Assembly (NCBI RefSeq): GCF_900108035.1
Contig: NZ_FNVS01000009.1
Coordinates: forward strand, 62,001-126,000
Reading direction: 5' to 3'
Length of the DNA stretch: 64,000 bases
Source: Parabacteroides chinchillae
GTDB taxonomy: Bacteria > Bacteroidota > Bacteroidia > Bacteroidales > Tannerellaceae
In this document: positions 2,669 through 33,641 of the stretch, one piece after another
Layout: every line of letters starts with the position of its first letter
Position numbering within the stretch: position 1 is the stretch's first letter
The notes under the pieces: generated by a model
What the model was told of the DNA's origin: nothing
The model's database searches: none
The model's input: the letters and a program-made list of their open reading frames with translations, nothing else
Made by a program: the position numbers and the translations under genes

Positions 2669-4744
2669 TCAGGAATTCATTATAACAGGGTGGACAAAAA
2701 TAAAACGGGCACCTTCCGTGTAATCCGGATCAACATAAAGTTGTCCTCCTAATTTTGTGGCTATCAACCAACATATAGGCAACCCTAATCCGGTTCCCTG
2801 AGCAAAATCATTCAATTTTTCAAAACGCTCAAATACTAAACCTTGCTTCTCTATAGGTATTCCACATCCCGTATCAGTAACTATAAAACGAATTATTTGC
2901 TTTTCTTCTGATATTTCTATCGAAAGATTTATTTCTCCCTTAGTTGTAAACTTTGAAGCGTTAAGCAACAATTTATTCAATAGTTGACGAATGCGATTCA
3001 TGTCAGTTTTTAATTCAAAGGACTCCACGGAGGAAGTAAACGTTAATTGCACCCCATCTGAAACTTTATCCTTTATATATTCAAATACTTCCCTGCAACA
3101 AGAAACTATGTCGCAAAAGGTAAATGAAAAACGGAAATTTGCAGATTCTAAGCAGGACAAATCAAGAACATCATTCACTAAATTCATTAATATTTCCGAA
3201 TTCTTACCAATAATAGCTGCAAACTCCATCCGATCTCCTTCACTATAATTATTTTCAGCCATAAGCTCGGAAAAGCCAACTATCGCATTTAGCGGAGTAC
3301 GTACCTCATGACTAATATTGGCAATAAACGCGCTTTTTTGCCGATTGGCTTTTTCAGCTTCTTCTTTAGCCATCTGTAATAATTTTTCAGAAGCCACCAA
3401 AGAATCTTTTTCACACAACAATTCATCCTTTAAGCGGCAAGTCCGCCGGTAATACCGGATAAGAAAATAAAGCACTAATAATAAAATGATAACAAACAAA
3501 ACAGATATAAACAATAATCGTTGTTTTATCAAAATCTGTTCATTCTGATACAGCAAAGCACTCTCCTGTTCATTTTGATCGTTTAAATCATTTAAAATAC
3601 GGAGTTGTTTTATCTGGCGATTAAATGCATCATTACTAATTACGGAATTGTTCTTTAGCAATTCTTCATAAACAGCCATTGCTTTTTTTATCTGACCATC
3701 AGCCCTCAAAACATCCACCTTTCTTTTCTGCATTTCCAAATCCAAATTCAGTGCCAAAGCATTGTCTATTGCTTTCAAAGCCAGGGCCGCGTTGTTTATT
3801 TTCTGATAATACATAGCCTTGGCTCTATAGTAGACATATCTCACCCATTCATCTGTTTCCGATTCGATAGTTTTTGTTGCTTCGCCTAATGCTTTTTCAG
3901 CTTTATTTAATTGACCGGAGACTGTATACAATTCGACATAATACGAATTGATTAATCCCGAATGCCAGCGCATCGGATATGTAATACCTATAGCTTTATA
4001 TTTTTGTTGTTCATCTTTGTAGATGTTCTGATATTTTTTCAACAAATCCTCTGACTCTTCAATGTCATTCATACGCAAAGACGAGACGAGCATATCAGAC
4101 AAATACTGCATAAAAAAGCCACGCTGAATACTTCTATTTTCCCATTGCAAACCCTCCCTAAAGACATTCACAGCCTCTCTATCACGCTTAACTGCCTGAT
4201 ATATCAGTCCTAAATTCTGTTTTGAGCACATAAAGCCAAATGCATACTTCTCTTTTTCGGCACGTGCAAACTGCAATAGGGCTTCGTTCATTGCTAACTC
4301 ATAATTAGCCTCCGACAAATATTTCCTACATATAAGATTACCGACTTTGAAAAAGGCTTCAGGATATTTTTGTTTTGCCAAGCATAAAGAATCCAACTGC
4401 TTTTTCCAATATATCAAACTATCAGAAACAGATAAATTATAATAATAACGGCACATTCCGGCTATTGCATCATATACAATTCCTGTAGAATCTATCTTAT
4501 TGGCAACATCTATAATCTGCTTCAAATAGGCAATCTCTTCAGGTTGCTGCCAATACTGATTAACTAATATTTTTAAAACCGGGATTTTTTCGGCATCAGT
4601 AACACAATTCTTTAGTGCCACATCAAGGCTATCCTTTGTTGTTTGACCAGGAATAACTTGCGCCTTCATCTGCGTGCCACAAAACAAATGGACAAATACA
4701 AAAATAAAGATATATATATAAACAAACGAACGCGTAGTTTTCAT
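2669..4744 (-). CDS. TPR-repeat sensor histidine kinase (upstream copy of a tandem pair)
   Basis: This 691-residue kinase is a paralogue of the gene that follows and has the same architecture. It has an N-terminal signal or anchor, a TPR-like helical sensor region, a membrane helix at about 412-434, HisKA with His at about residue 479 (SHEVRTPLNA), and HATPase_c with NKLLLNASKF, DTGCGI and GTGLGLPI motifs. It ends at the catalytic core and has no receiver or DNA-binding domain, so its partner regulator must be encoded elsewhere. A Bacteroidetes-type promoter lies just upstream on the minus strand. The two copies look like an old tandem duplication, because the sensor regions have diverged more than the kinase cores. 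Confidence 0.85.
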   Translation of the reverse strand: MKTTRSFVYIYIFIFVFVHLFCGTQMKAQVIPGQTTKDSLDVALKNCVTDAEKIPVLKILVNQYWQQPEEIAYLKQIIDVANKIDSTGIVYDAIAGMCRYYYNLSVSDSLIYWKKQLDSLCLAKQKYPEAFFKVGNLICRKYLSEANYELAMNEALLQFARAEKEKYAFGFMCSKQNLGLIYQAVKRDREAVNVFREGLQWENRSIQRGFFMQYLSDMLVSSLRMNDIEESEDLLKKYQNIYKDEQQKYKAIGITYPMRWHSGLINSYYVELYTVSGQLNKAEKALGEATKTIESETDEWVRYVYYRAKAMYYQKINNAALALKAIDNALALNLDLEMQKRKVDVLRADGQIKKAMAVYEELLKNNSVISNDAFNRQIKQLRILNDLNDQNEQESALLYQNEQILIKQRLLFISVLFVIILLLVLYFLIRYYRRTCRLKDELLCEKDSLVASEKLLQMAKEEAEKANRQKSAFIANISHEVRTPLNAIVGFSELMAENNYSEGDRMEFAAIIGKNSEILMNLVNDVLDLSCLESANFRFSFTFCDIVSCCREVFEYIKDKVSDGVQLTFTSSVESFELKTDMNRIRQLLNKLLLNASKFTTKGEINLSIEISEEKQIIRFIVTDTGCGIPIEKQGLVFERFEKLNDFAQGTGLGLPICWLIATKLGGQLYVDPDYTEGARFIFVHPVIMNS

Positions 4745-7346: not shown

Positions 7347-7356
7347 ACTCAGCAGG

Positions 7357-7431
7357 TCGGGATGACTGGATTCGAACCAGCGACCACACGCCCCCCAGAC
7401 GCGTACTCTAACCGGGCTGAGCTACATCCCG
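7357..7431 (-). tRNA. tRNA-Pro (anticodon GGG)
   Basis: Read on the minus strand, the 75-base gene has the acceptor pair CGGGATG/CATCCCG with discriminator A, a D-arm (GCTC...GAGT), an anticodon loop CTGGGGG giving anticodon GGG, and the T-arm GCTGG-TTCGAAT-CCAGT. No CCA is encoded. The 5' half, from the anticodon onward, is part of the 61-bp repeat that bounds the mobile element. The gene is intact on the left side of the element, but everything upstream of its -7 region is element DNA. Confidence 0.95.
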
Positions 7432-7452
7432 CTTTATTTTTACGGGTGCAAA
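7392..7452. repeat. attL: 61-bp direct repeat at the tRNA-Pro end of the integrated element
   Basis: Bases 7392-7452 are identical to 33566-33626. The repeat covers the anticodon loop and 5' half of tRNA-Pro, about 17 bases of leader, and the last bases of the tRNA -7 promoter box. Sequence diverges immediately outside on both sides (six C versus TTCCCCC on one side, AAATAG versus AAAGGT on the other). The distance between copies gives an element of 26,174 bp. Confidence 0.92.
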
Positions 7453-7736: not shown

Positions 7737-9005
7737 ATGGCTTCATTTAAGTTAGTGCTTCATAAGCCAAATAAGAGAAAAGACGGTACTTATCCCATCT
7801 CTTTACGGATAATAAAAAATATGAGAACTAAATATTTTAATTTAGGTCTTTACACGACAATAGAAGAATGGGATGAACATGCTGAACGTTTCAAACAGGA
7901 CAAAAAGATATGTCCTATGTATAAGGAGTATAATGCAAGATTATTAGAATTGCAAGCACGGGCACAAGCTCTTGAAATTAATTTTGACAGAGAAGGTATC
8001 GATTGGACTTTGGAACAATTCAAAAATGCCTTCTTTCATAAAACTAAACAAGGAAAGTTTATAGAATATACAAATAAATGTATTAATGATATGAAGGGAA
8101 CAGGACATATTGGAAATGCGAAAGTATGGGAAAGCTCTATCTACAATTTAAGTTTATATGATAAACGATTAAAGTCAAGGTTACTATCCGAAATTGACAT
8201 TAAATATGTGAATAACTACAATATTTTTATGGAAAAAAAGGGATGGTGTGGAAATACAAGAAAACATAATATAAAAACATTGAGAGCCATTTTAAACAAA
8301 GCGATACAAGAAAAAGAATGCTCACCTAATAATTATCCTTTTGGGAAAGGTGGGTTTTGTGTTTCAGCTTTAGGAGAAGAAACACGTAAAAGATTTTTAT
8401 CCGAAGAATCTCTATCCAAATTAATGAATACACAATCAAAGTCAATATCCAAAGAAATAGCACGTAGGCTATTTATATTTTCTTATTTGTGTTATGGTAT
8501 GAGTTTTATTGACATGGCTAATATCAAAAAAGAAAATATAATATTTGAAGGAGGTAAAGAGTATATAATGTATAAGCGACAGAAAACCGAACATTGTAAA
8601 GGTTCTAAGTATATTAAAATATTGATGAGTGACGATATTAAAGTATTAATAAAGTGGTTTACTGAAAACACCAATCTAATCGGGAAGTATTTATTACCAG
8701 TCGTAACTATTAACTATACAGGAGAGAAACTGTATGAGCATCAAAGAAGACGATTAGCCAAATATAATAGCAATTTAAAAAAATTAGGAGAAGAATTGGA
8801 TATTCCGGAAAAGTTGACAAGTTATGTAAGCCGTCATTCTATGGCTATGAGTTTACAAAAGGATGGAACTCCTAGGGAAGTAATCAGTCAGATTATGGGA
8901 CATAAAGATCTGAGCACAACTAATACATATTTAGACAGTTTCAGTAATGATGTAATTGAAAAAGCAACAAATAAATCACTATATAAAAATAAAATAGTAT
9001 TATGA
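7737..9005 (+). CDS. Tyrosine-type site-specific recombinase (integrase of the outer element)
   Basis: This 422-residue protein has an N-terminal arm-binding region (about 1-90), a SAM-like core-binding domain (about 95-200) and a C-terminal catalytic domain (about 215-415). Visible catalytic features are RHS (in TSYVSRHSMA), MGHKDLSTT and the nucleophile Tyr at about residue 398 (TYLDSF). The usual first Arg is absent: the box reads CYGMSFIDM, as in the IntDOT-like recombinases of Bacteroidetes. It lies just inside attL and should catalyse integration into tRNA-Pro and, with the next gene, excision. The stop overlaps the next start as ATGA. Very AT-rich codon use. Confidence 0.92.
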   Translation: MASFKLVLHKPNKRKDGTYPISLRIIKNMRTKYFNLGLYTTIEEWDEHAERFKQDKKICPMYKEYNARLLELQARAQALEINFDREGIDWTLEQFKNAFFHKTKQGKFIEYTNKCINDMKGTGHIGNAKVWESSIYNLSLYDKRLKSRLLSEIDIKYVNNYNIFMEKKGWCGNTRKHNIKTLRAILNKAIQEKECSPNNYPFGKGGFCVSALGEETRKRFLSEESLSKLMNTQSKSISKEIARRLFIFSYLCYGMSFIDMANIKKENIIFEGGKEYIMYKRQKTEHCKGSKYIKILMSDDIKVLIKWFTENTNLIGKYLLPVVTINYTGEKLYEHQRRRLAKYNSNLKKLGEELDIPEKLTSYVSRHSMAMSLQKDGTPREVISQIMGHKDLSTTNTYLDSFSNDVIEKATNKSLYKNKIVL

Positions 9006-9789: not shown

Positions 9790-10749
9790 ATGTATGATAC
9801 CATCCATTTAATATTAAAGGAAAATGATTTAGACATTCCTATTTCATTTAAAGAAGAAGTAGCTTGTAATATAGAGATAGACGAAAAGAAAAGTACTATA
9901 TCAAAGATTTATGGTCATATCGATAATATGAGTGTAATGATTACAGGGAAGACTTTATCTGTTATAGGGAGTTTAACTAGTTATACTAAGGGAAATAATA
10001 TAAAAGGGATGGTTTTTTCCGAAGTAAAAAAGGCAATTGAAAGTTTAAGTAAAACATTAAACGTGCCATTAGAAAAGGCGAAAGTAAAAAGGATTGACAT
10101 TGCACAGACTTTTACAATGCAATTTGAACCTAGACTTTATTTACCAAAATTATATTATTTAAGTGGATTTAGTAGGTCTAACATTAGTGGTACAAGTTTA
10201 TATTTTGGAAAAGAAAGTAAAAGGAAGAGCGGTGAAAATTTGCAATTACTTTTTTATGACAAAAATGCTGAATTAAGAAATTCAGATGGATATCCATTAG
10301 TACAGAAATCACGCAATTTATTAAGGTATGAATTAAGAATAAAGAATGTAAAATATACTTTTAAGCGCAAAATTCGATGTTTAGAATTGTTTTCAGAGGA
10401 TTTTTATCGTGAATTGATTAATTTATGGTATAGCATGTATAAAAGCATTGAAAAACGATTAGAATCACTTGAAGACTATTGTGAGATAAAATTAAACGGA
10501 AAAAAAGATTTATATGAGACTTGCCTGCGTTTATGTGTAATGGCTTTCAATATGGAAGAAGAAGTAGAAATTGCATCAAAAAAAGGAAAGGTCACAGCAC
10601 AAAACAAGAGTAATGTTCTGAAAAAGATAAAAGAGATAAAGGAGGAATTAAGGAAGAAGCATCCGATTTTGTCTATGATTGATGAATTGAATAAGAAAAT
10701 AAAGAAAGAATATGAAGAACAAATAAAAGGATTAGAAAAAGAAGCATAA
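9790..10749 (+). CDS. Probable rolling-circle replication initiator, phage/plasmid gene II/X-like
   Basis: This 319-residue protein opens with MYDTIHLIL, has RIDIAQTF near residue 107, LLFYDKNAELRN near 155 and RYELRIKN near 175, and ends in a long basic coiled tail (about 260-319). This order of motifs resembles the gpII/X-type replication proteins of filamentous phages and small plasmids, which nick the origin and start rolling-circle replication. It follows the integrase-excisionase pair and is itself followed by a hairpin-rich region, consistent with an origin. The assignment rests on motif spacing only, and the catalytic Tyr has not been identified with confidence. Confidence 0.6.
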   Translation: MYDTIHLILKENDLDIPISFKEEVACNIEIDEKKSTISKIYGHIDNMSVMITGKTLSVIGSLTSYTKGNNIKGMVFSEVKKAIESLSKTLNVPLEKAKVKRIDIAQTFTMQFEPRLYLPKLYYLSGFSRSNISGTSLYFGKESKRKSGENLQLLFYDKNAELRNSDGYPLVQKSRNLLRYELRIKNVKYTFKRKIRCLELFSEDFYRELINLWYSMYKSIEKRLESLEDYCEIKLNGKKDLYETCLRLCVMAFNMEEEVEIASKKGKVTAQNKSNVLKKIKEIKEELRKKHPILSMIDELNKKIKKEYEEQIKGLEKEA

Positions 10750-11391: not shown

Positions 11392-11421
11392 TTGCGGAAT
11401 CAAATAAAAGTATTACCTTTG
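11392..11421 (+). promoter_or_regulatory. Promoter of the structured RNA and abiF-type gene
   Basis: TTG (11392-11394), a 19-base spacer and TACCTTTG (11414-11421) give a near-perfect Bacteroidetes promoter. The predicted start is about 11428, immediately before the structured RNA and about 78 bases before the coding start. Confidence 0.75.
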
Positions 11422-11427
11422 CACTTG

Positions 11428-11484
11428 ATATGACCTCCCACGCTTCCCGTAGAACAGCGCACCCGGGGAGGTCTTCGAGTTTTT
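11428..11484 (+). ncRNA. Small structured RNA upstream of the abiF-type gene
   Basis: An 8-bp perfect stem (GACCTCCC at 11432-11439 with GGGAGGTC at 11466-11473) encloses a second stem CGCT/AGCG (11441-11444 with 11456-11459). The apical loop contains TCCCG, which could also pair with the CGGGG at the base to form a pseudoknot. A T-run follows at 11480-11484. With the promoter ending at 11421 this makes a free-standing transcript of about 55 bases. I recall published descriptions of a conserved RNA next to AbiF genes acting as the RNA partner; identity with that motif is not checked here. Confidence 0.6.
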
Positions 11485-11505
11485 ATATAGTAGCTTCTGA
11501 TAAAA

Positions 11506-12435
11506 TTGACTGACAAAACTGATTATACAAAGAAGCCGTTGACCCTCGCCGAGCAAGTTGCGAGACTAAAACAACGGGGACTTGTTTTCGATGATGAAAG
11601 CGAGGCATCCGCTTATTTGTTCAATATCAGCTACTACCGACTTCGTGCATACACTTATCCGTTCCAGGAGAACAGTGAAGATTCTGAACACAACTTTACT
11701 CGCAAAGATATTCACTTCAAAGACATAATAGACCTCTATTGTTTTGACCGCAGACTGCGTTCGCTTATTTTCAACGCCATTGAAAAGATAGAAGTGGCAG
11801 TACGCACAAAAATCGTACAGGTATATGCCGAAAGCACAGGTGATAGCCATTGGTACAATGATGAAAGTTTATATCGTTTCGGCTACGATGATTTAATGGA
11901 TCATATTGAAGCTGATGTAAACCGCAGCAACGAAGATTTTATCAAGCATTACAAATCAAAATACAACAATCCTCCGATGCCGCCAAGTTGGATGGCACTC
12001 GAAGTAGTATCGTTTGCCACATTGAGCCGCTTGTTCCAATCCTTAAAGTTGGATAGTCGCAAAGAGTACATTACCGAACAATTTGGGTTGAAGAAAGTGG
12101 CCATATTGGAGAACTGGCTGCACGCTATTTCCAATCTCCGCAATTGTTGCGCTCACCACAGCCGTACTTGGAATCGCCGTTTTATGGTTAGCGTAACATT
12201 GCCATACAATACTCTTTATCCGTTCATGGATAGAGCAACAATCGGACAAATACGCACAAACAAACTGTTTGCTGCACTCTCTTGTATCGCGTATATCCTT
12301 GATATTATCAGTCCCGGAAGTGATTTCAAAAAGAATATCAAGGAATTGCTCAAATCCGATTGCCGTCTGCTAGATCTTAAAGATATGGGATTCCCAAAGT
12401 ATTGGCAATCGCTTCCTGTTTGGAGAGAAAAATAG
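11506..12435 (+). CDS. abiF: Abi_2 family abortive-infection protein (AbiF/AbiD-type, HEPN RNase motif)
   Basis: This 309-residue protein has the Abi_2 pattern from its N-terminus (KKPLTLAEQVARLKQRGL, then YLFNISYYRLRAYTYPF) through FDRRLRSLIFNAIEKIEVAVR near residues 83-104. It ends with a HEPN active-site motif, Arg212-x4-His217 (RNCCAHH). HEPN proteins are metal-independent RNases, and the Abi_2 group causes abortive infection or growth arrest. The start is a TTG; no ATG exists near enough to keep the conserved N-terminus. It follows a promoter and a compact hairpin RNA, suggesting control by an RNA antitoxin. Its base composition is less AT-rich than that of the outer arm. The family call is confident; the gene symbol refers to type. 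Confidence 0.85.
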   Translation: MTDKTDYTKKPLTLAEQVARLKQRGLVFDDESEASAYLFNISYYRLRAYTYPFQENSEDSEHNFTRKDIHFKDIIDLYCFDRRLRSLIFNAIEKIEVAVRTKIVQVYAESTGDSHWYNDESLYRFGYDDLMDHIEADVNRSNEDFIKHYKSKYNNPPMPPSWMALEVVSFATLSRLFQSLKLDSRKEYITEQFGLKKVAILENWLHAISNLRNCCAHHSRTWNRRFMVSVTLPYNTLYPFMDRATIGQIRTNKLFAALSCIAYILDIISPGSDFKKNIKELLKSDCRLLDLKDMGFPKYWQSLPVWREK

Positions 12436-12724: not shown

Positions 12725-13786
12725 ATGCCTCATTATGGTGTAGACATATTTTCAGGAGCTGGCGGTCTTAGCTTAGGAGCAGAGATGGCTGGTATTACTA
12801 TGCGTTTTGCCATAGAGGTGAATGAAAGTGCAGCCAAGACATACAAAAGAAATCATAAACACACCGAAGTACTTTGTCAAAATATAAAAGAGGTCGATTT
12901 AAGAAGTCAATTCTCAAATGAACCGCCTTTTATAATTATGGGTGGACCGCCTTGCCAAGGCTTTTCCTTATCGAATACTCGGAATCGAAATATGGAAAAT
13001 GAGAAGAATTTCCTCTTTCGTGAATTTGTGCGTATGGTTAAAGAGTTACATCCCAAATGGTTTCTTTTTGAAAACGTTTCAGGAATTGTTCATATGAACC
13101 ATGGAGCAGTAGTTGAAATGATTGCCGATGAATTTAAATCATTGGGCTATAGCGTTAAATACACTGTCCTAAAAGCCTCTGATTATGGCGTTCCTCAAAA
13201 TAGGGAACGCTTTTTCCTTGTTGGAAATTCGCTTGGAATTGACTTTCATTTTCCCTCACCTAATGACACTAAAATTTCAGTTCAAGAAGCTATTGGAGAT
13301 TTACCTGCCTTAGAAAATGGAGACAATTACAATGAGTTAGATTATCTTATGCCAATCTGCGAAGCGTCTAAATACGCTCGCAGAATGAGAGAAAAGTCTA
13401 ATAAATCTCTCCAGAACTTTGTGTCTCGGAATAATGATTTGGCTATTAAAAGATATTCCTATATTCCGCAAGGTGGTAATTGGCGAGATATACCTGAAGA
13501 ATTAATGGATAATTATGCCGACAAATCAAGATGCCATAGCGGTATTTATAAACGATTGCGAGCAGACCAACCATCGGTAGTAATTTCCAATTACCGAAAA
13601 AGTATGTTGATACACCCCACGCAAAACAGAGGGTTATCTGTTAGAGAGGCTGCGCGTATTCAAAGTTTTCCTGACCATTTCGTTTTTGAAGGTCCTATAT
13701 CTCATATTCAACAACAAATCGGAAATGCAGTTCCACCACTCTTAGCAAAAGCAGTTGTAAAACAAATATTAGCACTAACAAAATGA
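12725..13786 (+). CDS. C5-cytosine-specific DNA methyltransferase
   Basis: This 353-residue enzyme contains the ordered C5-methyltransferase motifs. They are the AdoMet site DIFSGAGGLSLGAEMAG (motif I, from residue 5), GGPPCQGFS with catalytic Cys77 (motif IV), ENV (motif VI), QNRERFFLVG (motif VIII), a target-recognition region at about 190-300, and QIGNAVPPLLAKAV (motif X, near 330). It transfers a methyl group to C5 of cytosine in a sequence that cannot be read from the protein. It heads a five-gene operon and probably marks self DNA. Its stop overlaps the start of the next gene (ATGA). Confidence 0.93.
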   Translation: MPHYGVDIFSGAGGLSLGAEMAGITMRFAIEVNESAAKTYKRNHKHTEVLCQNIKEVDLRSQFSNEPPFIIMGGPPCQGFSLSNTRNRNMENEKNFLFREFVRMVKELHPKWFLFENVSGIVHMNHGAVVEMIADEFKSLGYSVKYTVLKASDYGVPQNRERFFLVGNSLGIDFHFPSPNDTKISVQEAIGDLPALENGDNYNELDYLMPICEASKYARRMREKSNKSLQNFVSRNNDLAIKRYSYIPQGGNWRDIPEELMDNYADKSRCHSGIYKRLRADQPSVVISNYRKSMLIHPTQNRGLSVREAARIQSFPDHFVFEGPISHIQQQIGNAVPPLLAKAVVKQILALTK

Positions 13787-15282
13787 GTAAGTTCAAAGAA
13801 AACATACCACAAGCAGATATGCTCATGGGGTCAATGCGTTCAATGGGCTATTCTTTTGAAGCAGCTATCGCTGATGTTATTGACAATAGCATCAGTGCGC
13901 AATGCTCATTTGTAAAATTGTTATTCCCGACAACTTACACTGACGCTAAAGCCGTTGGTGTTCTCGATGATGGTGTGGGTATGGATGCAGAAACGTTATT
14001 TGAAGCCATGCGCTATGGAAGTTCTGATTCTTCGGACGAAAGAGACGAAAATGACCTCGGTAGGTTCGGACTTGGAATGAAATCCGCTTCTATGTCCCAA
14101 TGTCGTATTCTTACAGTAGTCAGTAAACAAGGTAATGATTATTGTTGCTATACTTGGGACTATAACATAATCTGCGAGCAAAAGCGTTGGATTGTTATAG
14201 AGCATACTCACAAAGAAATAGAGGCATTGCCTTACATTGAAGAACTGGAGTCAATTGAAACCGGCACTTTAGTTATATGGCAAGATTTTGATGTTATCGA
14301 AAAATCCAATGATGGTAGAGTTTTTGATTTTCTCAATGACCAAAAAGATATACTGGATAAATATCTTGGGCTGATATACCACAGATTCCTTTCTGAAACC
14401 AAGAAAAGCAAATTGAAAATTTTCATAAATAACGGTCGAGTTAAGCCTCTTGATCCATTTCTTGAATCACACCCTAAAACGACAGCAAAAAAAGAAAGGA
14501 CAATAGAGATAAACGATAGCAATGGTTTTGAACGACTTATTACAATCAAGCCGTTCATATTACCGTATGCAACAGACCTTTCAGATAAAGATAAACAGTT
14601 AGTAGGTGGAATCGAAAATTTGCGTTCAAAACAAGGCTTCTATATTTACAGAAATAGACGCCTTATTATTTGGGGTACTTGGTTCGGCATGAAGCCAAGA
14701 GCTGAACTTACAAAGAATGCAAGAATACGTGTTGATATACCCAATACTCTTGATGATATTTGGGGTATTAACATCATGAAACAAAAAGCCATCATACCCA
14801 AAAGCATACAGCACCGAATGAAGAAAACTGTGCTTGAAGCTATGGAAATCTCTGTTGCAAAGCAAACACATCGAGGTCGGAGAGAAAATGTTGAAGACCT
14901 TGACTATATATGGGATAGAATGGAAGGACGTAATAAGACCTACTTCTATCAAATCAACCGTGATAATAAGGTCTTTAAGATGATTCGAGAGAAAATGTCT
15001 GACGAAGATTTTATTTATCTTGATATGCTTATCAGTGAGATTGAGAAGAATATTCCAATCAATCAAATGTATATAGACAAGTCTAATGAAGCGATTTTCG
15101 TTGAAGAGGACAATGATCGATTCGATGAGGTATTTCAACTTGGTATAACTATGGTTGACTTAATCAAAGAAACTCGACCTTTTGCTGAAATAATAGAAGA
15201 CCTTATGAAATCAGAGCCTTTTTGTAGATACCAAAAGGTTCAAACTGCATTACTAAAACATTATGAGAATGAGCCTAACTGA
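13783..15282 (+). CDS. MORC-like GHKL ATPase of a defence system
   Basis: This 499-residue protein has a GHKL (Hsp90/MutL/histidine kinase) ATPase fold in its first 200 residues. The N-box is ADVIDNSISAQ near residue 30, G1 is DDGVGMD near 63, and G2 is GRFGLGMKSAS near 93. The usual N-box Glu is Asp here. A transducer-like domain follows with KQGFYIYRNRRLIIWGTW near 290, similar to MORC/MutL proteins, and then an uncharacterised C-terminal helical region. Such proteins are expected to form ATP-dependent clamps or loops on DNA. Comparative-genomic work on prokaryotic MORC ATPases placed them in restriction-modification-like operons with Z1 proteins. It overlaps both neighbours (4 and 20 bases). 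Confidence 0.85.
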   Translation: MSKFKENIPQADMLMGSMRSMGYSFEAAIADVIDNSISAQCSFVKLLFPTTYTDAKAVGVLDDGVGMDAETLFEAMRYGSSDSSDERDENDLGRFGLGMKSASMSQCRILTVVSKQGNDYCCYTWDYNIICEQKRWIVIEHTHKEIEALPYIEELESIETGTLVIWQDFDVIEKSNDGRVFDFLNDQKDILDKYLGLIYHRFLSETKKSKLKIFINNGRVKPLDPFLESHPKTTAKKERTIEINDSNGFERLITIKPFILPYATDLSDKDKQLVGGIENLRSKQGFYIYRNRRLIIWGTWFGMKPRAELTKNARIRVDIPNTLDDIWGINIMKQKAIIPKSIQHRMKKTVLEAMEISVAKQTHRGRRENVEDLDYIWDRMEGRNKTYFYQINRDNKVFKMIREKMSDEDFIYLDMLISEIEKNIPINQMYIDKSNEAIFVEEDNDRFDEVFQLGITMVDLIKETRPFAEIIEDLMKSEPFCRYQKVQTALLKHYENEPN

Positions 15283-18163
15283 AGCACAATATGGAATGCT
15301 TTCCCAAATAGCGACTCAACTGATAAATGTTGAGAGAACGCAGGGAAAGTCAATTGACTTTGATAACTTGATGTCATATATCGACAGGGCTATTACCTTT
15401 TGTGGTTTTACTTGCGATGAAGATACCAAGAATAAACTTTTTGTGGAATTAGAATACCAATTTGCTATTAGACATACTTCATCAGAATGTATCTTTGATG
15501 ACTATGACCTTAAACAATGGTATGACAATAAAAATATAAAAGATGCTTTTTTCTGGAATAGATACCGCCGTTATCTTTCTGAAAAAACTTCTATTGACCC
15601 CGTCAGCATAAATAAGCTGGACGAAGAAACATTACCGAACATTATGAACTGTTTGGGTGACCCGAATGAAATATTTGAGGGAAAAAGGCTTCGCCGTGGG
15701 TTAATTATCGGAGACGTTCAATCTGGGAAAACAGCTACTTATTCAGGCTTGATATGTAAGGCAGCTGATGCTGGTTACAAGGTCGTTATTCTCCTTGCCG
15801 GTATTACCGAAAGTTTGCGAGGACAAACTCAAGAACGAATTGATGATGGCATTGTTGGGTTTACATATCGCAAAGTTGATAAAATTGTTAAAAGTGGTCT
15901 TGTCGGAGTTGGACTTGATAACAAGCCTCGCCGTGCTACTTCATTCACTACTTGTATAAAAGACTTTGTAGGAGATTGCGATAAGATTGCCACTACATTG
16001 AACGAGCATAATTCTTTAGTTATATTTGTCGTGAAGAAAAACGTTTCGGTTCTAAACAAGATGTATAAATGGCTTAGCGATAATAATATGGATCCAGTTC
16101 TCCAATGTGTTAATCAGCCTATGCTTCTTATTGATGATGAAGCCGATAACGCTTCAGTCAATACAAAAAGGGACGAAACAGACCCAACGAAGACTAATAA
16201 AATAATTAGGCAGATTTGTAACCTATTTAAGAACGCTAACTATGTAGGGTTTACGGCAACCCCTTTTGCCAACGTCTTTATTGACCCGGATTCTGTGGAT
16301 AGCATGAAGCATGCAGATTTGTTCCCTGAACATTTTATCTATGTGCTTCCAACTCCTTCTAACTATATTGGAGCAAAACAGTTATTCTTTGAAAACGAAA
16401 AATGTTTTTCACAATTAAGATATATTGTTGATATAGAAGAACCAGATTACGATTCTGACGAATATAAGGATTCTTCTAAAAATGATATTGACACACTTAA
16501 CTCAGGACCATTTTATTCTCGGCATAGAAAAGAATGGGACGGAATACTTCCTAAATCGTTAAGAGAGGCTGTAATATCATTTTTTATTGCCAATATAATT
16601 CGAGACTTGCGTGGACAACAATCGACACCAAGAAGTATGCTTGTTAATATGTCGCGTTTTATAAAGGTTCAGAACATTATACGTGAACATATTCAAGCCA
16701 TATATGATTCTGTGCGTAATGCAGTGGAACACGACTTTTCAGGAAAAATAAAGGAAGATTCTAACTTACCTCTATTCCAAGAAATCAAGTCCGTTTTCGA
16801 ACGTCATTATAGTAATGTTAGCGATATAGCTTTTAGCCGAATTTGTGATAAACAAAACATATTGAAAGCCATTGATAAAATCAAAGTGATTGTTGTCAAT
16901 GGCGGAAAGAGTAGTGCCAAATTAGACTATAAAACCAACAAATCGTTACGAGTAATTGCTGTCGGTGGTTTAGCTTTATCACGAGGACTTACGCTCGAAG
17001 GGCTTATCACGAGCTATTTTTATCGCAATACATCTACTTTTGACGTTTTAATGCAAATGGGACGTTGGTTCGGTTACCGAACTGGATATGAAGACATATT
17101 CCAAGTTTGGACGAGCCGATTAAGTGCTGATTGGTATGAAGAAATTGAATCAGCCACCATTGAATTGAAAGAAGATATTAAGCAAATGTTTGAGCAACAT
17201 CTCACGCCTAAAGATTTTGGTATAAGAGTCAGAGACTATTGTGATGAGCTTAGTATAACATCAGCTAATAAAATGAGGTCAGCATTTGAATTATATGAAA
17301 TGCAATCTTATTATGGTAACATTTGCGATACGCCATACCTTAGTACTAATGTAACACAAAATGCTCATAACAAAGAACAAGTTATTGCATTAACTAAGTA
17401 TCTTTTTGACAACAATTTCGATTTTAGATTTGCGGACAGACCCAAACACGAGGGTGAATCTGTTCTTTCAGATGACCCTTCTTCAAGGTATTTCGCCAAT
17501 GTTCCTAAAAATGTAATCATTGATTTTCTCTCTCGCATTAAATGCTCTATGGTTAATATGAGATTTAATACAGACAACATCCTTGATTTTATGCAAGATA
17601 GTAAAACAACTGGTATAGATAAATGGGATGTGGTTTTTGAGGGCGGTGATGGCACTATCTATTATGATGTTCCCGGATTAGAAAAAATAAGGTGCGCTAA
17701 CCGTGCAATAGAAGAACATGGCAATGTTATTCAAATTAGTTCTCGCCGTAGAATGTTAGGTCTTCGCGAAGGTAAATTTGCTTTACAGAAAGAACAAATA
17801 AAGCTTGCGGAAGATTTATGTAGAGCGGCATGGAAAGAAGAAGATCCAGATGCCACCGATGAGAGCCTTAAAAATAGAAATGTACCTCTTAAAGCATACT
17901 TCCAGTATCTACCTAAGAGAAACCCTGTGCTAATCATATTTCTATTACAACCAAATCCTCCCGTTCCGAACAAGGAAGAAAAGCCAAAACTGAAAGCTTT
18001 TAGAAAAGAACTCGGTGAGGAAAGAATTGTTGCTTTTGCCATCGGATTCCCCGGAGTTAAAGAGGCTGAAAGCGCGAAGAAATATAAAGCTAATAAAATA
18101 TACATGCAGTTACACATGCAAGACGAACCTGAAGAAGTTGACGATGAAGAACAAATTATTTGA
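15263..18163 (+). CDS. Z1-domain P-loop ATPase (helicase-like) of a defence system
   Basis: This 966-residue protein has a helicase-like P-loop core. Walker A is GDVQSGKT at residues 150-157, Walker B is DDEAD at 291-295, FTATPFANVF follows near 333, and the Z1-type segment LALSRGLTLEGLITSYF...QMGRWFGYR lies near 570-615. Z1 domains occur in ATP-dependent restriction systems such as those with N.CglI/N.NgoAVII-type subunits, where ATP hydrolysis drives nuclease action. The gene overlaps the ATPase gene before it by 20 bases (an ATG six bases later is an alternative start) and the nuclease gene after it by 20 bases. Its role is probably motor or switch for the complex. Confidence 0.88.
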   Translation: MRMSLTEAQYGMLSQIATQLINVERTQGKSIDFDNLMSYIDRAITFCGFTCDEDTKNKLFVELEYQFAIRHTSSECIFDDYDLKQWYDNKNIKDAFFWNRYRRYLSEKTSIDPVSINKLDEETLPNIMNCLGDPNEIFEGKRLRRGLIIGDVQSGKTATYSGLICKAADAGYKVVILLAGITESLRGQTQERIDDGIVGFTYRKVDKIVKSGLVGVGLDNKPRRATSFTTCIKDFVGDCDKIATTLNEHNSLVIFVVKKNVSVLNKMYKWLSDNNMDPVLQCVNQPMLLIDDEADNASVNTKRDETDPTKTNKIIRQICNLFKNANYVGFTATPFANVFIDPDSVDSMKHADLFPEHFIYVLPTPSNYIGAKQLFFENEKCFSQLRYIVDIEEPDYDSDEYKDSSKNDIDTLNSGPFYSRHRKEWDGILPKSLREAVISFFIANIIRDLRGQQSTPRSMLVNMSRFIKVQNIIREHIQAIYDSVRNAVEHDFSGKIKEDSNLPLFQEIKSVFERHYSNVSDIAFSRICDKQNILKAIDKIKVIVVNGGKSSAKLDYKTNKSLRVIAVGGLALSRGLTLEGLITSYFYRNTSTFDVLMQMGRWFGYRTGYEDIFQVWTSRLSADWYEEIESATIELKEDIKQMFEQHLTPKDFGIRVRDYCDELSITSANKMRSAFELYEMQSYYGNICDTPYLSTNVTQNAHNKEQVIALTKYLFDNNFDFRFADRPKHEGESVLSDDPSSRYFANVPKNVIIDFLSRIKCSMVNMRFNTDNILDFMQDSKTTGIDKWDVVFEGGDGTIYYDVPGLEKIRCANRAIEEHGNVIQISSRRRMLGLREGKFALQKEQIKLAEDLCRAAWKEEDPDATDESLKNRNVPLKAYFQYLPKRNPVLIIFLLQPNPPVPNKEEKPKLKAFRKELGEERIVAFAIGFPGVKEAESAKKYKANKIYMQLHMQDEPEEVDDEEQII

Positions 18164-19055
18164 AATATTCTCTCAGAATTTTCAGCCAAGTCACTTTATT
18201 AGATTTGGCGAGAATCGCGACCTAAATCTATATTTAGGTCGTGATGACAAGAATAATTTCGCTCTTGAATTTAGAGGGAAATATGTTCCTGTAAAGATAG
18301 TGGGTTCTGATGTTATATCCGTATATCAAGGTAAAAGTGCAGACCATTATGTACTCCGTTTTTCACTTGAAAATGCCGAACTTTTAGAGTATTTCTGCAC
18401 ATTTTGCCAAGACTTATTGGATTCTACCGTAAATTTAAAGATTGACGATATAGCATATAAAACACTTTGCTCTCGTTATTTTGCTTGGAAAAAGCTGTTT
18501 AAGCCGCACTCGGGTTCTTTATCCGATACTGAAATTATCGGACTTATTGGCGAGTTGCTGTTTATGAAAGAGTATATGATACCCCAATGGGGCATTACTA
18601 AATCTTTAGAAAGTTGGATGGGACCAGAACGCTCCCATAAAGATTTTTCTACAGAAAGCGAATGGTATGAAATAAAAGCAATAAACACCGGCAAAGAGAC
18701 TGTTAGAATTTCCTCAATCGAACAGTTGGATGGAAATGAAGACGGTTGTCTTGCTGTATATTGTCTTGAAAAAATGAGTCCCTCATTTAGTGGCATAAAA
18801 TTGAATACACTTGTCTCTGAACTCATGAACACTATGGGATCTCCTATAAACCGCGAAACCCTACTATCAAAACTATCGTTGTATAATTTTGACTTCTCTC
18901 CCGAATATGACAACTTTGTGTACTCAAAGGTAGGTTTCTCAATGTATAAAATCACAGAACATTTTCCTCGGCTTTGTCGGAGTAGCGTACCAATGTCTAT
19001 TAGTAAAGTCCAATATGACATCGTTCTTTCTGAGATTGAGGAGTTTAAAGTATAA
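18144..19055 (+). CDS. PD-(D/E)XK nuclease-like protein (DUF4420)
   Basis: This is a 303-residue protein with the start placed at the ATG inside the end of the Z1 gene, because the conserved region begins MKNKLFEIF; a longer frame upstream is only overlap. Near residues 130-180 it shows EIIGLIGELLFMKEY, then Asp167 in HKDF and Glu176-Ile-Lys178 (EIK), the PD-(D/E)XK nuclease signature of the DUF4420 family. It is likely the DNA-cleaving subunit of the system. It overlaps the Z1 gene by 20 bases and is followed after 11 bases by the AIPR gene. Confidence 0.82.
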   Translation: MKNKLFEIFSQNFQPSHFIRFGENRDLNLYLGRDDKNNFALEFRGKYVPVKIVGSDVISVYQGKSADHYVLRFSLENAELLEYFCTFCQDLLDSTVNLKIDDIAYKTLCSRYFAWKKLFKPHSGSLSDTEIIGLIGELLFMKEYMIPQWGITKSLESWMGPERSHKDFSTESEWYEIKAINTGKETVRISSIEQLDGNEDGCLAVYCLEKMSPSFSGIKLNTLVSELMNTMGSPINRETLLSKLSLYNFDFSPEYDNFVYSKVGFSMYKITEHFPRLCRSSVPMSISKVQYDIVLSEIEEFKV

Positions 19056-19066
19056 ATCCGAACACT

Positions 19067-21181
19067 ATGCAAATCGAAGAATTTAGAACCCAATTTATAG
19101 ACCAACTTAGGTTTAATGCTGAGCATGATGGGACAGACCCGGAAACACAGTTTATAACTCGATTACTTGACGAGCTTGAAAGTATTGGAGAGTTAAACGA
19201 CCCAATACCGATGTCAATAGAAATGCGAGGTAAAAACCGCCGCCTTATGGCATTTGACGCTTACGCTTACGATGAAGCAGACAGTGCTTTAATCTTAATC
19301 GCAAGCGATTTTGTCAATGAGCGAGACACCGTACCGACATTGACTAATACCCGAATAAATGATTTATACATTCATATGAGAAATTTTCTTGATGAATGTA
19401 TAAATGGGCACATTCATGACTATTGTGATGATTCAGACCCTGCAATAAATCTTGCAAAAGAATTCCGTCACAAAATTGGCAAAGGAATGATTGAAACCGA
19501 AATACTTCGCTTCAAGTTCTATATCCTTTCCAACTCTGTACTTAGTAAGCAGGTAAAAAGTATTAGTCAAGAAGATTTTGAGGGTCGTCCAGTAGAACTT
19601 AATATTTGGACTTTAGAACGTATCTTCCAAACATTTACTTCCAATGTTAGCGAAATAATTGAGTTCGACACTAAAGACTTCGGGTGTGATGGTGTACAAT
19701 GTCTCCAAGCTGATTTAGGTATTGATACTGATTATGATGCCTATTTAGGCATTGTCCCTGGAAATTTCTTGGCTAATCTTTATCTGAAATACGGAAGCAA
19801 GTTATTGCAGGGTAACGTACGCGCTTTTTTAAGTGTGAGAGGAAAAGTAAATAAAGGTATCAGAGATACGATTATTAACCACCCGGAAAATTTTTTCACA
19901 TACAATAATGGTATAGCGATAGTAGCAAGAGCAGTTCGCTTTTCTGCGGACAAAACAAAAATCATACATTTCAAAGACCCGCAAATCATAAACGGCGGTC
20001 AAACGACAGCGTCTTTGGCTAATGCCATAATTAAAAAGGAAGACAAAAAAGGGATGGACACTTTGTTCGTTCCTATGAAATTGACTGTTCTTAATGTTGA
20101 AGATGATATGTCCGAGGAACAAGTTGACCGTTACAATGAGATAACCAAAACCATATCTCAATGCGCAAACTGTCAGAACCCAGTTTCCGATGCGGACTTT
20201 TTCTCCAACCACCCTTTCCATGTCGCTATGGAAAAACTTTCTCGTCAGGTAATGGCACCGCCAGTAGATGGGAAACCATATCAGACAACGTGGTTCTACG
20301 AACGTTCACGAGGTAAATGGGAGCAAGAGCAGATGAAAATGACGGTTGCCGAGAGAAAGAAGTTTGGTGAAATGCACCCCAAAAATCAAGTCATAAAAAA
20401 AGAAAAACTTGCCAAATGCCTTAATACGATATATATGAATCCTCATCAAGTTTGCCAAAGTTCTGCAATCAACTTTAGCAAATTTGCTTCTATCGTAGAG
20501 AAGATGTACGATGAATCAAGAGATAGCATTAATGAGGAATTTTTCAAGAAAGCGGTATGCTCTGTAATTATATTCGACACTCTTGATTCTCGAATAGGTA
20601 GGTCCTCTTGGTATCCTAAAGGTGGTAATAAGGCACAGATTACACCTTATACTATCGCCAAACTTATGACCCTTATTCCTAAAAATAAGGATTTAGATTG
20701 GAAGACCATATGGCAAAGGCAAACTTTATATCCGGCATTAGAGTACGAACTTCTACGACTTGCCGAATGTACTCACCATTTCCTTATGGAACAAGCAAAC
20801 GGTGGTATTGTAAGAACTATTTCTCGTACCCAAGGTGTTTGGAATGCTTTTCAAGAATATAAGTTCCAGTTATCAGATGAGTTTATCCAAACACTTATCT
20901 CTATGGAAGAAACTAAGTCTATTGAAGCAGCTGCCAAACGAGCACATAAATTTAATTCTAACATTGATGCCTCCATTGAAATTTTCAATCTTGGAGCGAC
21001 TTATTGGTTACAAGTCTATAATGACCTTTTGAAAGAAAAGGTTTTGTCTTATGGCGACCTTGATTTTATAAAGGGAGTAGCTTCTTATATTCAACGTGGC
21101 AACCTACCTTCTACCGCTCAATGTAAAAGACTTGTTAAGATTGTCGCTAAAGCAGAAGATAAGGGCTATATTATGCCATAA
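19067..21181 (+). CDS. AIPR family protein (abortive infection phage resistance)
   Basis: This 704-residue protein has the AIPR domain in its central part, with FFTYNNGIAIVARAV near residue 265 and IINGGQTTASLANAI near 308. An N-terminal region of about 200 residues resembles nuclease-like folds (FDAYAYDEADSALILIAS near 58) but no active site can be fixed by eye. The C-terminal third is helical and uncharacterised. AIPR proteins occur in phage-resistance loci and in MORC/Z1 operons; their exact activity is not established. This is the last gene of the operon. Confidence 0.85.
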   Translation: MQIEEFRTQFIDQLRFNAEHDGTDPETQFITRLLDELESIGELNDPIPMSIEMRGKNRRLMAFDAYAYDEADSALILIASDFVNERDTVPTLTNTRINDLYIHMRNFLDECINGHIHDYCDDSDPAINLAKEFRHKIGKGMIETEILRFKFYILSNSVLSKQVKSISQEDFEGRPVELNIWTLERIFQTFTSNVSEIIEFDTKDFGCDGVQCLQADLGIDTDYDAYLGIVPGNFLANLYLKYGSKLLQGNVRAFLSVRGKVNKGIRDTIINHPENFFTYNNGIAIVARAVRFSADKTKIIHFKDPQIINGGQTTASLANAIIKKEDKKGMDTLFVPMKLTVLNVEDDMSEEQVDRYNEITKTISQCANCQNPVSDADFFSNHPFHVAMEKLSRQVMAPPVDGKPYQTTWFYERSRGKWEQEQMKMTVAERKKFGEMHPKNQVIKKEKLAKCLNTIYMNPHQVCQSSAINFSKFASIVEKMYDESRDSINEEFFKKAVCSVIIFDTLDSRIGRSSWYPKGGNKAQITPYTIAKLMTLIPKNKDLDWKTIWQRQTLYPALEYELLRLAECTHHFLMEQANGGIVRTISRTQGVWNAFQEYKFQLSDEFIQTLISMEETKSIEAAAKRAHKFNSNIDASIEIFNLGATYWLQVYNDLLKEKVLSYGDLDFIKGVASYIQRGNLPSTAQCKRLVKIVAKAEDKGYIMP

Positions 21182-33407: not shown

Positions 33408-33641
33408 ATGGAAAAAGAAAAAATGAATTTGCATTCATTTGCAACAAAATATAGCAAATGTTTTATGAAAGTGGTAGGGAGAAATAAAAAAAGAGCTAAA
33501 CAATCAAGTCTAACTCCTTATATATCAAAGCATAATAAGTTTTTTAAATTTATTTTTGCTCCCTTCCCCCAGACGCGTACTCTAACCGGGCTGAGCTACA
33601 TCCCGCTTTATTTTTACGGGTGCAAAGGTAAACTATTTTAG
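33408..33641 (+). CDS. Small basic protein whose C-terminus is read through attR
   Basis: This 77-residue frame is very rich in Lys and Arg in its first 50 residues. The last 24 or so codons come from the att repeat and the chromosomal flank, so its C-terminus is set by the integration event and would differ in the excised circle. A palindrome just upstream, shared with the zinc-ribbon gene, is the only sign of expression. I do not recognise it, and it may not be a gene. Confidence 0.3.
   Translation: MEKEKMNLHSFATKYSKCFMKVVGRNKKRAKQSSLTPYISKHNKFFKFIFAPFPQTRTLTGLSYIPLYFYGCKGKLF
33566..33626. repeat. attR: 61-bp direct repeat with truncated tRNA-Pro remnant
   Basis: Identical to 7392-7452. 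On the minus strand it contains the tRNA-Pro 5' end through the anticodon loop, then switches to element DNA. No intact T-arm follows, so this is a tRNA fragment driven by the original promoter. Confidence 0.92.

Follow-up and report, generated by a model that had tools for sequence, protein, structure and literature searches.

AbiF proteins, the conserved abiF RNA encoded upstream of them and their link to Cas13, of which AbiF is the proposed ancestor, have already been published (PMC12373285, PMC12165695, PMC12737573), which bears out what the original prediction says of a conserved RNA beside AbiF genes and of a link between AbiF and the origin of Cas13; the antitoxin role of the abiF RNA was published in 2025 (PMC12373285). 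According to the available text of that study, the AbiF_Cd/RCd22 pair of the C. difficile prophage phi027 consists of an Abi_2 HEPN toxin encoded behind a non-coding RNA on a mobile element, with a terminator-like U-run between RNA and gene, and residues R202 and H207 of its R-x4-H pair are required for toxicity in C. difficile. The second described system is PbAbiF, represented together with its AbiFr non-coding RNA by PDB entry 8VZ6 (PMC12737573), and the R210A+H215A variant is reported to be inactive (PMC12373285).

The locus considered here lies in a stretch of 64,000 nucleotides of Parabacteroides chinchillae DNA (hereafter the window), and very probably represents an AbiF toxin paired with its RNA antitoxin in a type III-like arrangement. 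On the + strand, a Bacteroidota-type promoter (11392–11421) is followed by a two-helix RNA (about 11428–11484, ends inferred from the sequence) and by abiF (11506–12435), and the whole unit sits between the Rep gene and the MZA-like defence genes of an integrative element of about 26 kb in tRNA-Pro. The element is bounded by two identical 61-bp direct repeats made of tRNA-Pro(ggg) sequence, the left one (7392–7452) overlapping tRNA-Pro(ggg) (7355–7431, − strand) as the likely attachment site, and the right one (33566–33626) marking the likely other end of the element. Its cargo includes integrases, among them a tyrosine integrase (7737–9005, +; Pfam PF00589/PF13102/PF17293), a Rep-like replication-associated protein of the Phage_CRI type (9790–10749, +; PF05144), a Mob_Pre gene and defence genes. 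The latter lie directly downstream of abiF (12725–21181, +; PADLOC and Pfam), with a C5-methyltransferase starting at 12725 and MzaB-, MzaC-, MzaD- and MzaE-like genes starting at 13783, 15263, 18015 and 19067; this setting differs from that of AbiF_Cd, which is placed within the prophage lysis module (PMC12373285).

The product of the window gene (309 aa, +) matches Abi_2 (PF07751) over residues 37–223 with 192.1 bits against a cut-off of 25.6 (E 1.4e-56), and is labelled AbiD by PADLOC. In the PDB, 8vz6 (E 4.3e-58) is its sole sequence relative up to E 1, and it aligns to this entry nearly full length, over residues 10–307, with the catalytic residues in register: R212 and H217 fall on R210 and H215 of PbAbiF, placing the HEPN R-x4-H pair at the same positions, and correspond to R202/H207 of AbiF_Cd. 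A TTG start is found at the same place in all 11 close loci displayed, and the Abi_2 protein with an Rx4H motif and a TTG start that had been read from the DNA is thus upheld. A second Abi_2 gene, above the Pfam cut-off, occurs in the same genome (L002, G000:C9:77540-78106); it was considered as a further RNA-linked copy and rejected, as no upstream RNA is visible by eye and R1, a model derived from nine homologous RNAs, detects only one RNA genome-wide (E up to 10).

The near-perfect promoter noted ahead of the RNA was also recovered: the box TACCTTTG (11414–11421) exactly matches the Bacteroidota −7 consensus, a TTG (11392–11394) stands 19 nt before it, and the TAnnTTTG box is conserved in 15 of the 17 homologous loci checked. 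A sigma-70 promoter was rejected in favour of the Bacteroidota box, the nearest upstream sites on the + strand reaching only 9/12.

Between promoter and gene, the nested stems and the T-run announced by the original prediction are present, as an outer helix 1 of 8 bp (11432–11439/11466–11473), an inner helix 2 of 4 bp (11441–11444/11456–11459) separated from it by one bulged A, a 6-nt linker (11460–11465) and a U5 tract (11480–11484). The possible pseudoknot is not sustained, since, by eye, the loop is constant but the linker reads CACCCG or CGCTCA depending on the subtype. The fold of the single sequence is better than that of most shuffled versions (z = −2.46; 3/200 shuffles equally good); in its lowest-energy form helix 1 is present and the inner pairing differs from the family helix 2, which rests on comparison, being near-invariant, with changes on both sides in few sequences, and sharing its topology with RF03085, where AGC/GCU occupies the same position. 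RF03085 (abiF) is the best Rfam match of the window RNA, covering all 37 model positions, and the resemblance to the published motif suggested from the outset therefore stands for topology and position, but not for the Rfam threshold. Both RNAs have two nested helices, a 1-nt 5′ joint and a 6-nt 3′ linker, directly upstream of an AbiF gene, with helix 2 assigned mainly from the shared topology; they differ in loop and linker sequence. As the score obtained (24.2 bits) lies below the gathering score of the family (37 bits), the window RNA is classed, by sequence, as a separate abiF RNA subtype outside the threshold of the Rfam model. RCd22, about 88–132 nt long, contains two abiF motifs that belong to RF03085, whereas the window RNA is about 55 nt long and carries one motif below the cut-off (PMC12373285). 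The window locus adds an AbiF toxin clade whose RNA Rfam does not recognise: a search of the whole genome with RF03085 at E 0.001 gave no matches, and among 197 related genomes RF03085 matches 22, the window genome not included, and model R1 matches 28.

Conservation is concentrated in the RNA. Across 13 loci of the window subtype compared without gaps, a procedure that can inflate differences in the flanks, mismatches amount to 6 of 624 sites (about 1%) in the RNA core, 46 of 260 in the adjoining 20 nt upstream and 147 of 520 (about 28%) in the next 40 nt; the DNA identity of the five intact abiF reading frames compared is 86–90%. In an alignment of 36 host-side RNAs (34 sources), of which 32 adjoin AbiF or its remains, 96.4% of the cells pair, and the covariation that had been proposed as a check supports helix 1, the score for the structure (0.418) exceeding every slid control and all 500 shuffles (0.147 ± 0.016), while one of the five measures, the number of further pair types, was not above the shuffles (256/500). 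One homologous locus (L014) carries a tandem pair of the RNAs (1338–1395 and 1434–1490) ahead of a single abiF gene.

The subtypes of the RNA also follow the protein. Forty AbiF proteins placed on a maximum-likelihood tree were given leader-RNA labels by eye: A for the window subtype with its bulged A, C for RNAs without the bulged A and mostly with a CGCT linker, T for two rows with a TACC linker, R for the Rfam type, and X for other or divergent leaders and for the frameshifted locus L039. These five labels (four RNA subtypes and "other") require 5 changes on the tree against a shuffled mean of 21.5, a value as low being reached in 0 of 200 shuffles. Subtypes C, R and T are each confined to one side of a well-supported branch, and subtype A costs two changes because L039, which has an A-type RNA, carried the label X. 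RNA subtype therefore tracks the AbiF tree almost perfectly, pointing to common descent of RNA and protein, and the specificity of the pair may consequently be readable from sequence. The RNA is thus both directly upstream of the toxin gene and co-inherited with it, as in type III systems.

RNAs of both subtypes were also found free-standing in viral contigs, and those of the Rfam subtype in named phages as well, which is the new element here; the kind of system to which AbiF belongs, the antitoxin role of its RNA and the occurrence of an abiF RNA in cyanophage S-CREM1 were already known, the last from the available text of PMC9964418. For the window subtype, IMG/VR was scanned with the loop pattern alone, giving 69 loci against 6 for the reversed pattern used as a control. 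In 48 of the 69, the flanks, which lie outside the pattern, can pair into a helix of 6 bp or more with the family geometry, compared with about 2% at random places and none of the 6 controls. Since the loop of these RNAs is fixed by the search pattern, its constancy is no evidence, and it is helix, bulge and linker that count. All 8 pairs of helix 1 change on both sides, with a covariation of 0.610 against 0.145 (33 RNAs from 32 loci, near-copies avoided), and the association between bulge and linker matches that of the host side, a GCT linker occurring with the bulged A in 0/17 phage and 0/17 host-side RNAs, and with C in 13/15 and 12/16, respectively (1 and 3 rows not parsed).

Fifty viral records, drawn from the 51 best R1 matches and comprising 46 that have the helix and 4 that do not, were searched whole; Abi_2 is encoded in 3 and absent from 47, many viral records being fragments and some near-copies. 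The 45 helix-bearing viral loci without an adjoining AbiF contain 17 different helix 1 sequences, and TAnnTTTG stands upstream in 15 of them (10/31 after removal of repeats) against a background of 4%; judged by this promoter box, the carriers are probably phages of Bacteroidota. Within the largest viral lineage, which counts 20 loci (15 of them distinct), conservation is 97% in the RNA, 69% in the upstream flank and 95% in the downstream flank. A protein-pattern search of the viral contigs for close AbiF relatives found none, and one AbiF contig (L102) surfaced through its RNA. A different toxin behind the free-standing RNAs was looked for and rejected, ten neighbouring reading frames corresponding to thymidylate synthase, lysozyme, a head completion protein, ATP-grasp or no convincing family. 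A search of named phages and plasmids for the window-type RNA yielded matches to five phage records and a single plasmid (E 1–5), which were discarded as chance-like, and two viral copies used as queries gave no phage matches at E up to 1; the window subtype is therefore known here only from bacterial genomes and IMG/VR contigs. One viral contig (L142) has two sites, at 2469–2514 and 3033–3083, one being a good copy of the RNA and the other matching weakly at 20 bits.

With the loop pattern of the Rfam subtype, counted without a reversed-pattern control, at least 120 viral loci were obtained, and 55 of the 80 examined have a helix of at least 5 bp; of 50 records from these 55 helix loci searched whole, Abi_2 is encoded in 3 and absent from 47. 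Used as BLAST queries, two viral RNAs of this subtype gave 72 and 80 matching records of named phages (E up to 10). Ten phages were taken (LittleE, Acj61, T7-Ah, CGphi29, S-SZBM1, Lolly9, Mimi, Pomar16, VH-5 and MrMagoo): seven pass the RF03085 cut-off, VH-5 (35.1 bits) and Mimi (33.0 bits) fall just under it, Pomar16 shows no RF03085 match at E 0.5, and none of the ten has a match to the Abi_2 profile. In the seven passing phages the RNA lies between annotated genes, and it adjoins tRNA genes in S-SZBM1, Lolly9 and MrMagoo. In MrMagoo (L306, 1504–1539) it is found inside a tRNA array with an RtcB RNA ligase gene, an arrangement that suggests a region of RNA repair and counter-RNase function.

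Given the published antitoxin role of the abiF RNA, its occurrence in phages that lack the toxin is suggestive of decoys, and the phage RNAs, as distinct from the window locus, do present an antitoxin-like RNA where no toxin is encoded, many viral records being fragments. They may be decoy antitoxins that keep the host AbiF RNase off during infection, a device that would be widespread, spanning unrelated phages, probably of Bacteroidota (judged by the promoter box) and of mycobacteria, Acinetobacter, Aeromonas, Salicola and cyanobacteria. It would constitute a standing RNA-based counter-defence parallel to two known cases in which phage RNAs copy the RNA of a defence system, the pseudo-ToxI of phage PhiTE (PMC5449768) and the RNA anti-CRISPRs, which act on CRISPR-Cas (PMC10651486); pseudo-ToxI differs in acting on ToxN and in being expanded in escape mutants, according to the available part of PMC5449768. 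Regarding abiF itself, the lytic cyanophage S-CREM1 carries an abiF sRNA (RF03085, 51.6 bits), and the available text of its report deals with this one phage, mentions three phages in Rfam and considers host regulation, not an AbiF decoy (PMC9964418). The literature located on phage abiF RNA comprises this report and a review citing it (PMC12197685), in the accessible parts of which no AbiF decoy was proposed, and the words "orphan" and "decoy" are absent from PMC12373285. If the phage RNAs are decoys, isolated phages would conceal a broad RNA counter-defence between their genes and within their tRNA arrays, and experiments could then address what triggers AbiF and what determines its specificity.

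Alternatively, and with a probability somewhat short of even, the phage RNAs may do an unrelated phage job, such as RNA processing in tRNA arrays, packaging or gene control, and have only ancestry or shape in common with the abiF RNA. The location of some of them inside tRNA arrays would fit such a role, as would the plasmid AbiF loci, seven of which were fetched (three from Acinetobacter, three actinobacterial and one from Bacteroides fragilis). Of these seven, the Bacteroides fragilis locus exceeds the RF03085 cut-off (40.1 bits) and one from A. johnsonii comes close to it (33.1 bits). When host-matched loops were sought by eye, none of the six Acinetobacter and actinobacterial leaders carried the loop seen in RNAs from phages that share the host or have a related one. 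Between the leader of one A. johnsonii plasmid (L307) and the phage RNAs of Aeromonas and Salicola, common features are limited to a TGC/GCA-like inner helix and a CACAAAT-like linker. A region of phage sk1 reportedly protects phage 712 from AbiF, and sk1 was therefore considered as a historical case of a decoy and rejected, as RF03085 finds nothing in it up to E 10; its tRNA region matches that of phage 712, with the same two tRNA calls. Against an unrelated job stand the combinations of loop, bulge and linker in the phage RNAs, the same as those that separate the AbiF clades, as well as the diversity of helix 1 sequences and the varied neighbourhoods (lysozyme, thymidylate synthase, head completion, tRNA, portal, terminase). 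With six plasmid leaders lacking the phage loop, sk1 lacking an abiF RNA and a basis in sequence alone, the case for decoys is evenly balanced. As to the plasmid loci themselves, in two from A. johnsonii (L307 and L308) AbiF directly adjoins restriction genes, in one case for a subunit S and a helicase and in the other for a type I subunit R, and both leaders have a T-run and a divergent hairpin of their own; the actinobacterial leaders (L310, L311 and L312) form a CAGCC/GGCTG-like hairpin unlike RF03085, possibly representing further unlisted RNA subtypes.

Regarding the window locus, an RNA antitoxin inhibiting an RNase toxin is likely by analogy with AbiF_Cd/RCd22 and PbAbiF/AbiFr; the missed RF03085 gathering score and the Abi_2 gene without a visible RNA in the same genome count against it. 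A single promoter would give rise to the short two-helix RNA, and, extrapolating from the C. difficile system, most transcripts would end at the U-run and some would read through into abiF. The conserved loop and linker of the RNA would mediate its binding to an AbiF dimer, thereby blocking the HEPN RNase with its catalytic pair R212/H217, and phage infection may disturb the supply or the binding of the RNA, upon which free AbiF would cut RNA and growth would stop. It is improbable that the RNA is mainly a cis-acting attenuator that controls readthrough into abiF and does not bind the protein: its place in the 5′ leader, with the U-run just ahead of the start codon, would suit such a function, and in C. 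difficile RCd22 does act on abiF transcriptionally, reducing its expression, but the same RNA acts also in trans by binding AbiF (available text of PMC12373285), a plain attenuator would not need to follow the AbiF clade, and RNAs of the same build are free-standing in viral records.

The antitoxin role agrees with the pattern of gene loss. Among 23 non-viral loci of the window subtype (R1 above 60 bits), abiF is intact in 13, at a contig end in 1, broken in 6 (a frameshift in L039, internal deletions in L044, L046, L047 and L068, and a truncation in L045) and missing from 3 (L069, L070 and L073), where tblastn finds no abiF within 1.0–1.5 kb downstream of the RNA; close relatives and draft genomes weigh heavily in this tally, and four of the loci, including the three without the gene, were fetched through the RNA, so that it is no fair sample. 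The toxin is thus lost or broken beside a kept RNA in 9 of the 23 loci and the reverse occurs in none, the RNA being present at all 13 intact genes and at the contig-end gene, in loci recruited by protein searches; such an asymmetric loss would be expected of a toxin–antitoxin pair, the unfair sampling notwithstanding. That the window abiF is itself a drifting relic in a decayed or non-functional locus is highly improbable, since broken copies are common among the relatives but the window reading frame is intact, with its catalytic pair, promoter box and RNA. In the four loci with internal deletions, the breakpoints within abiF differ from one another, and the promoter side and the RNA are intact.
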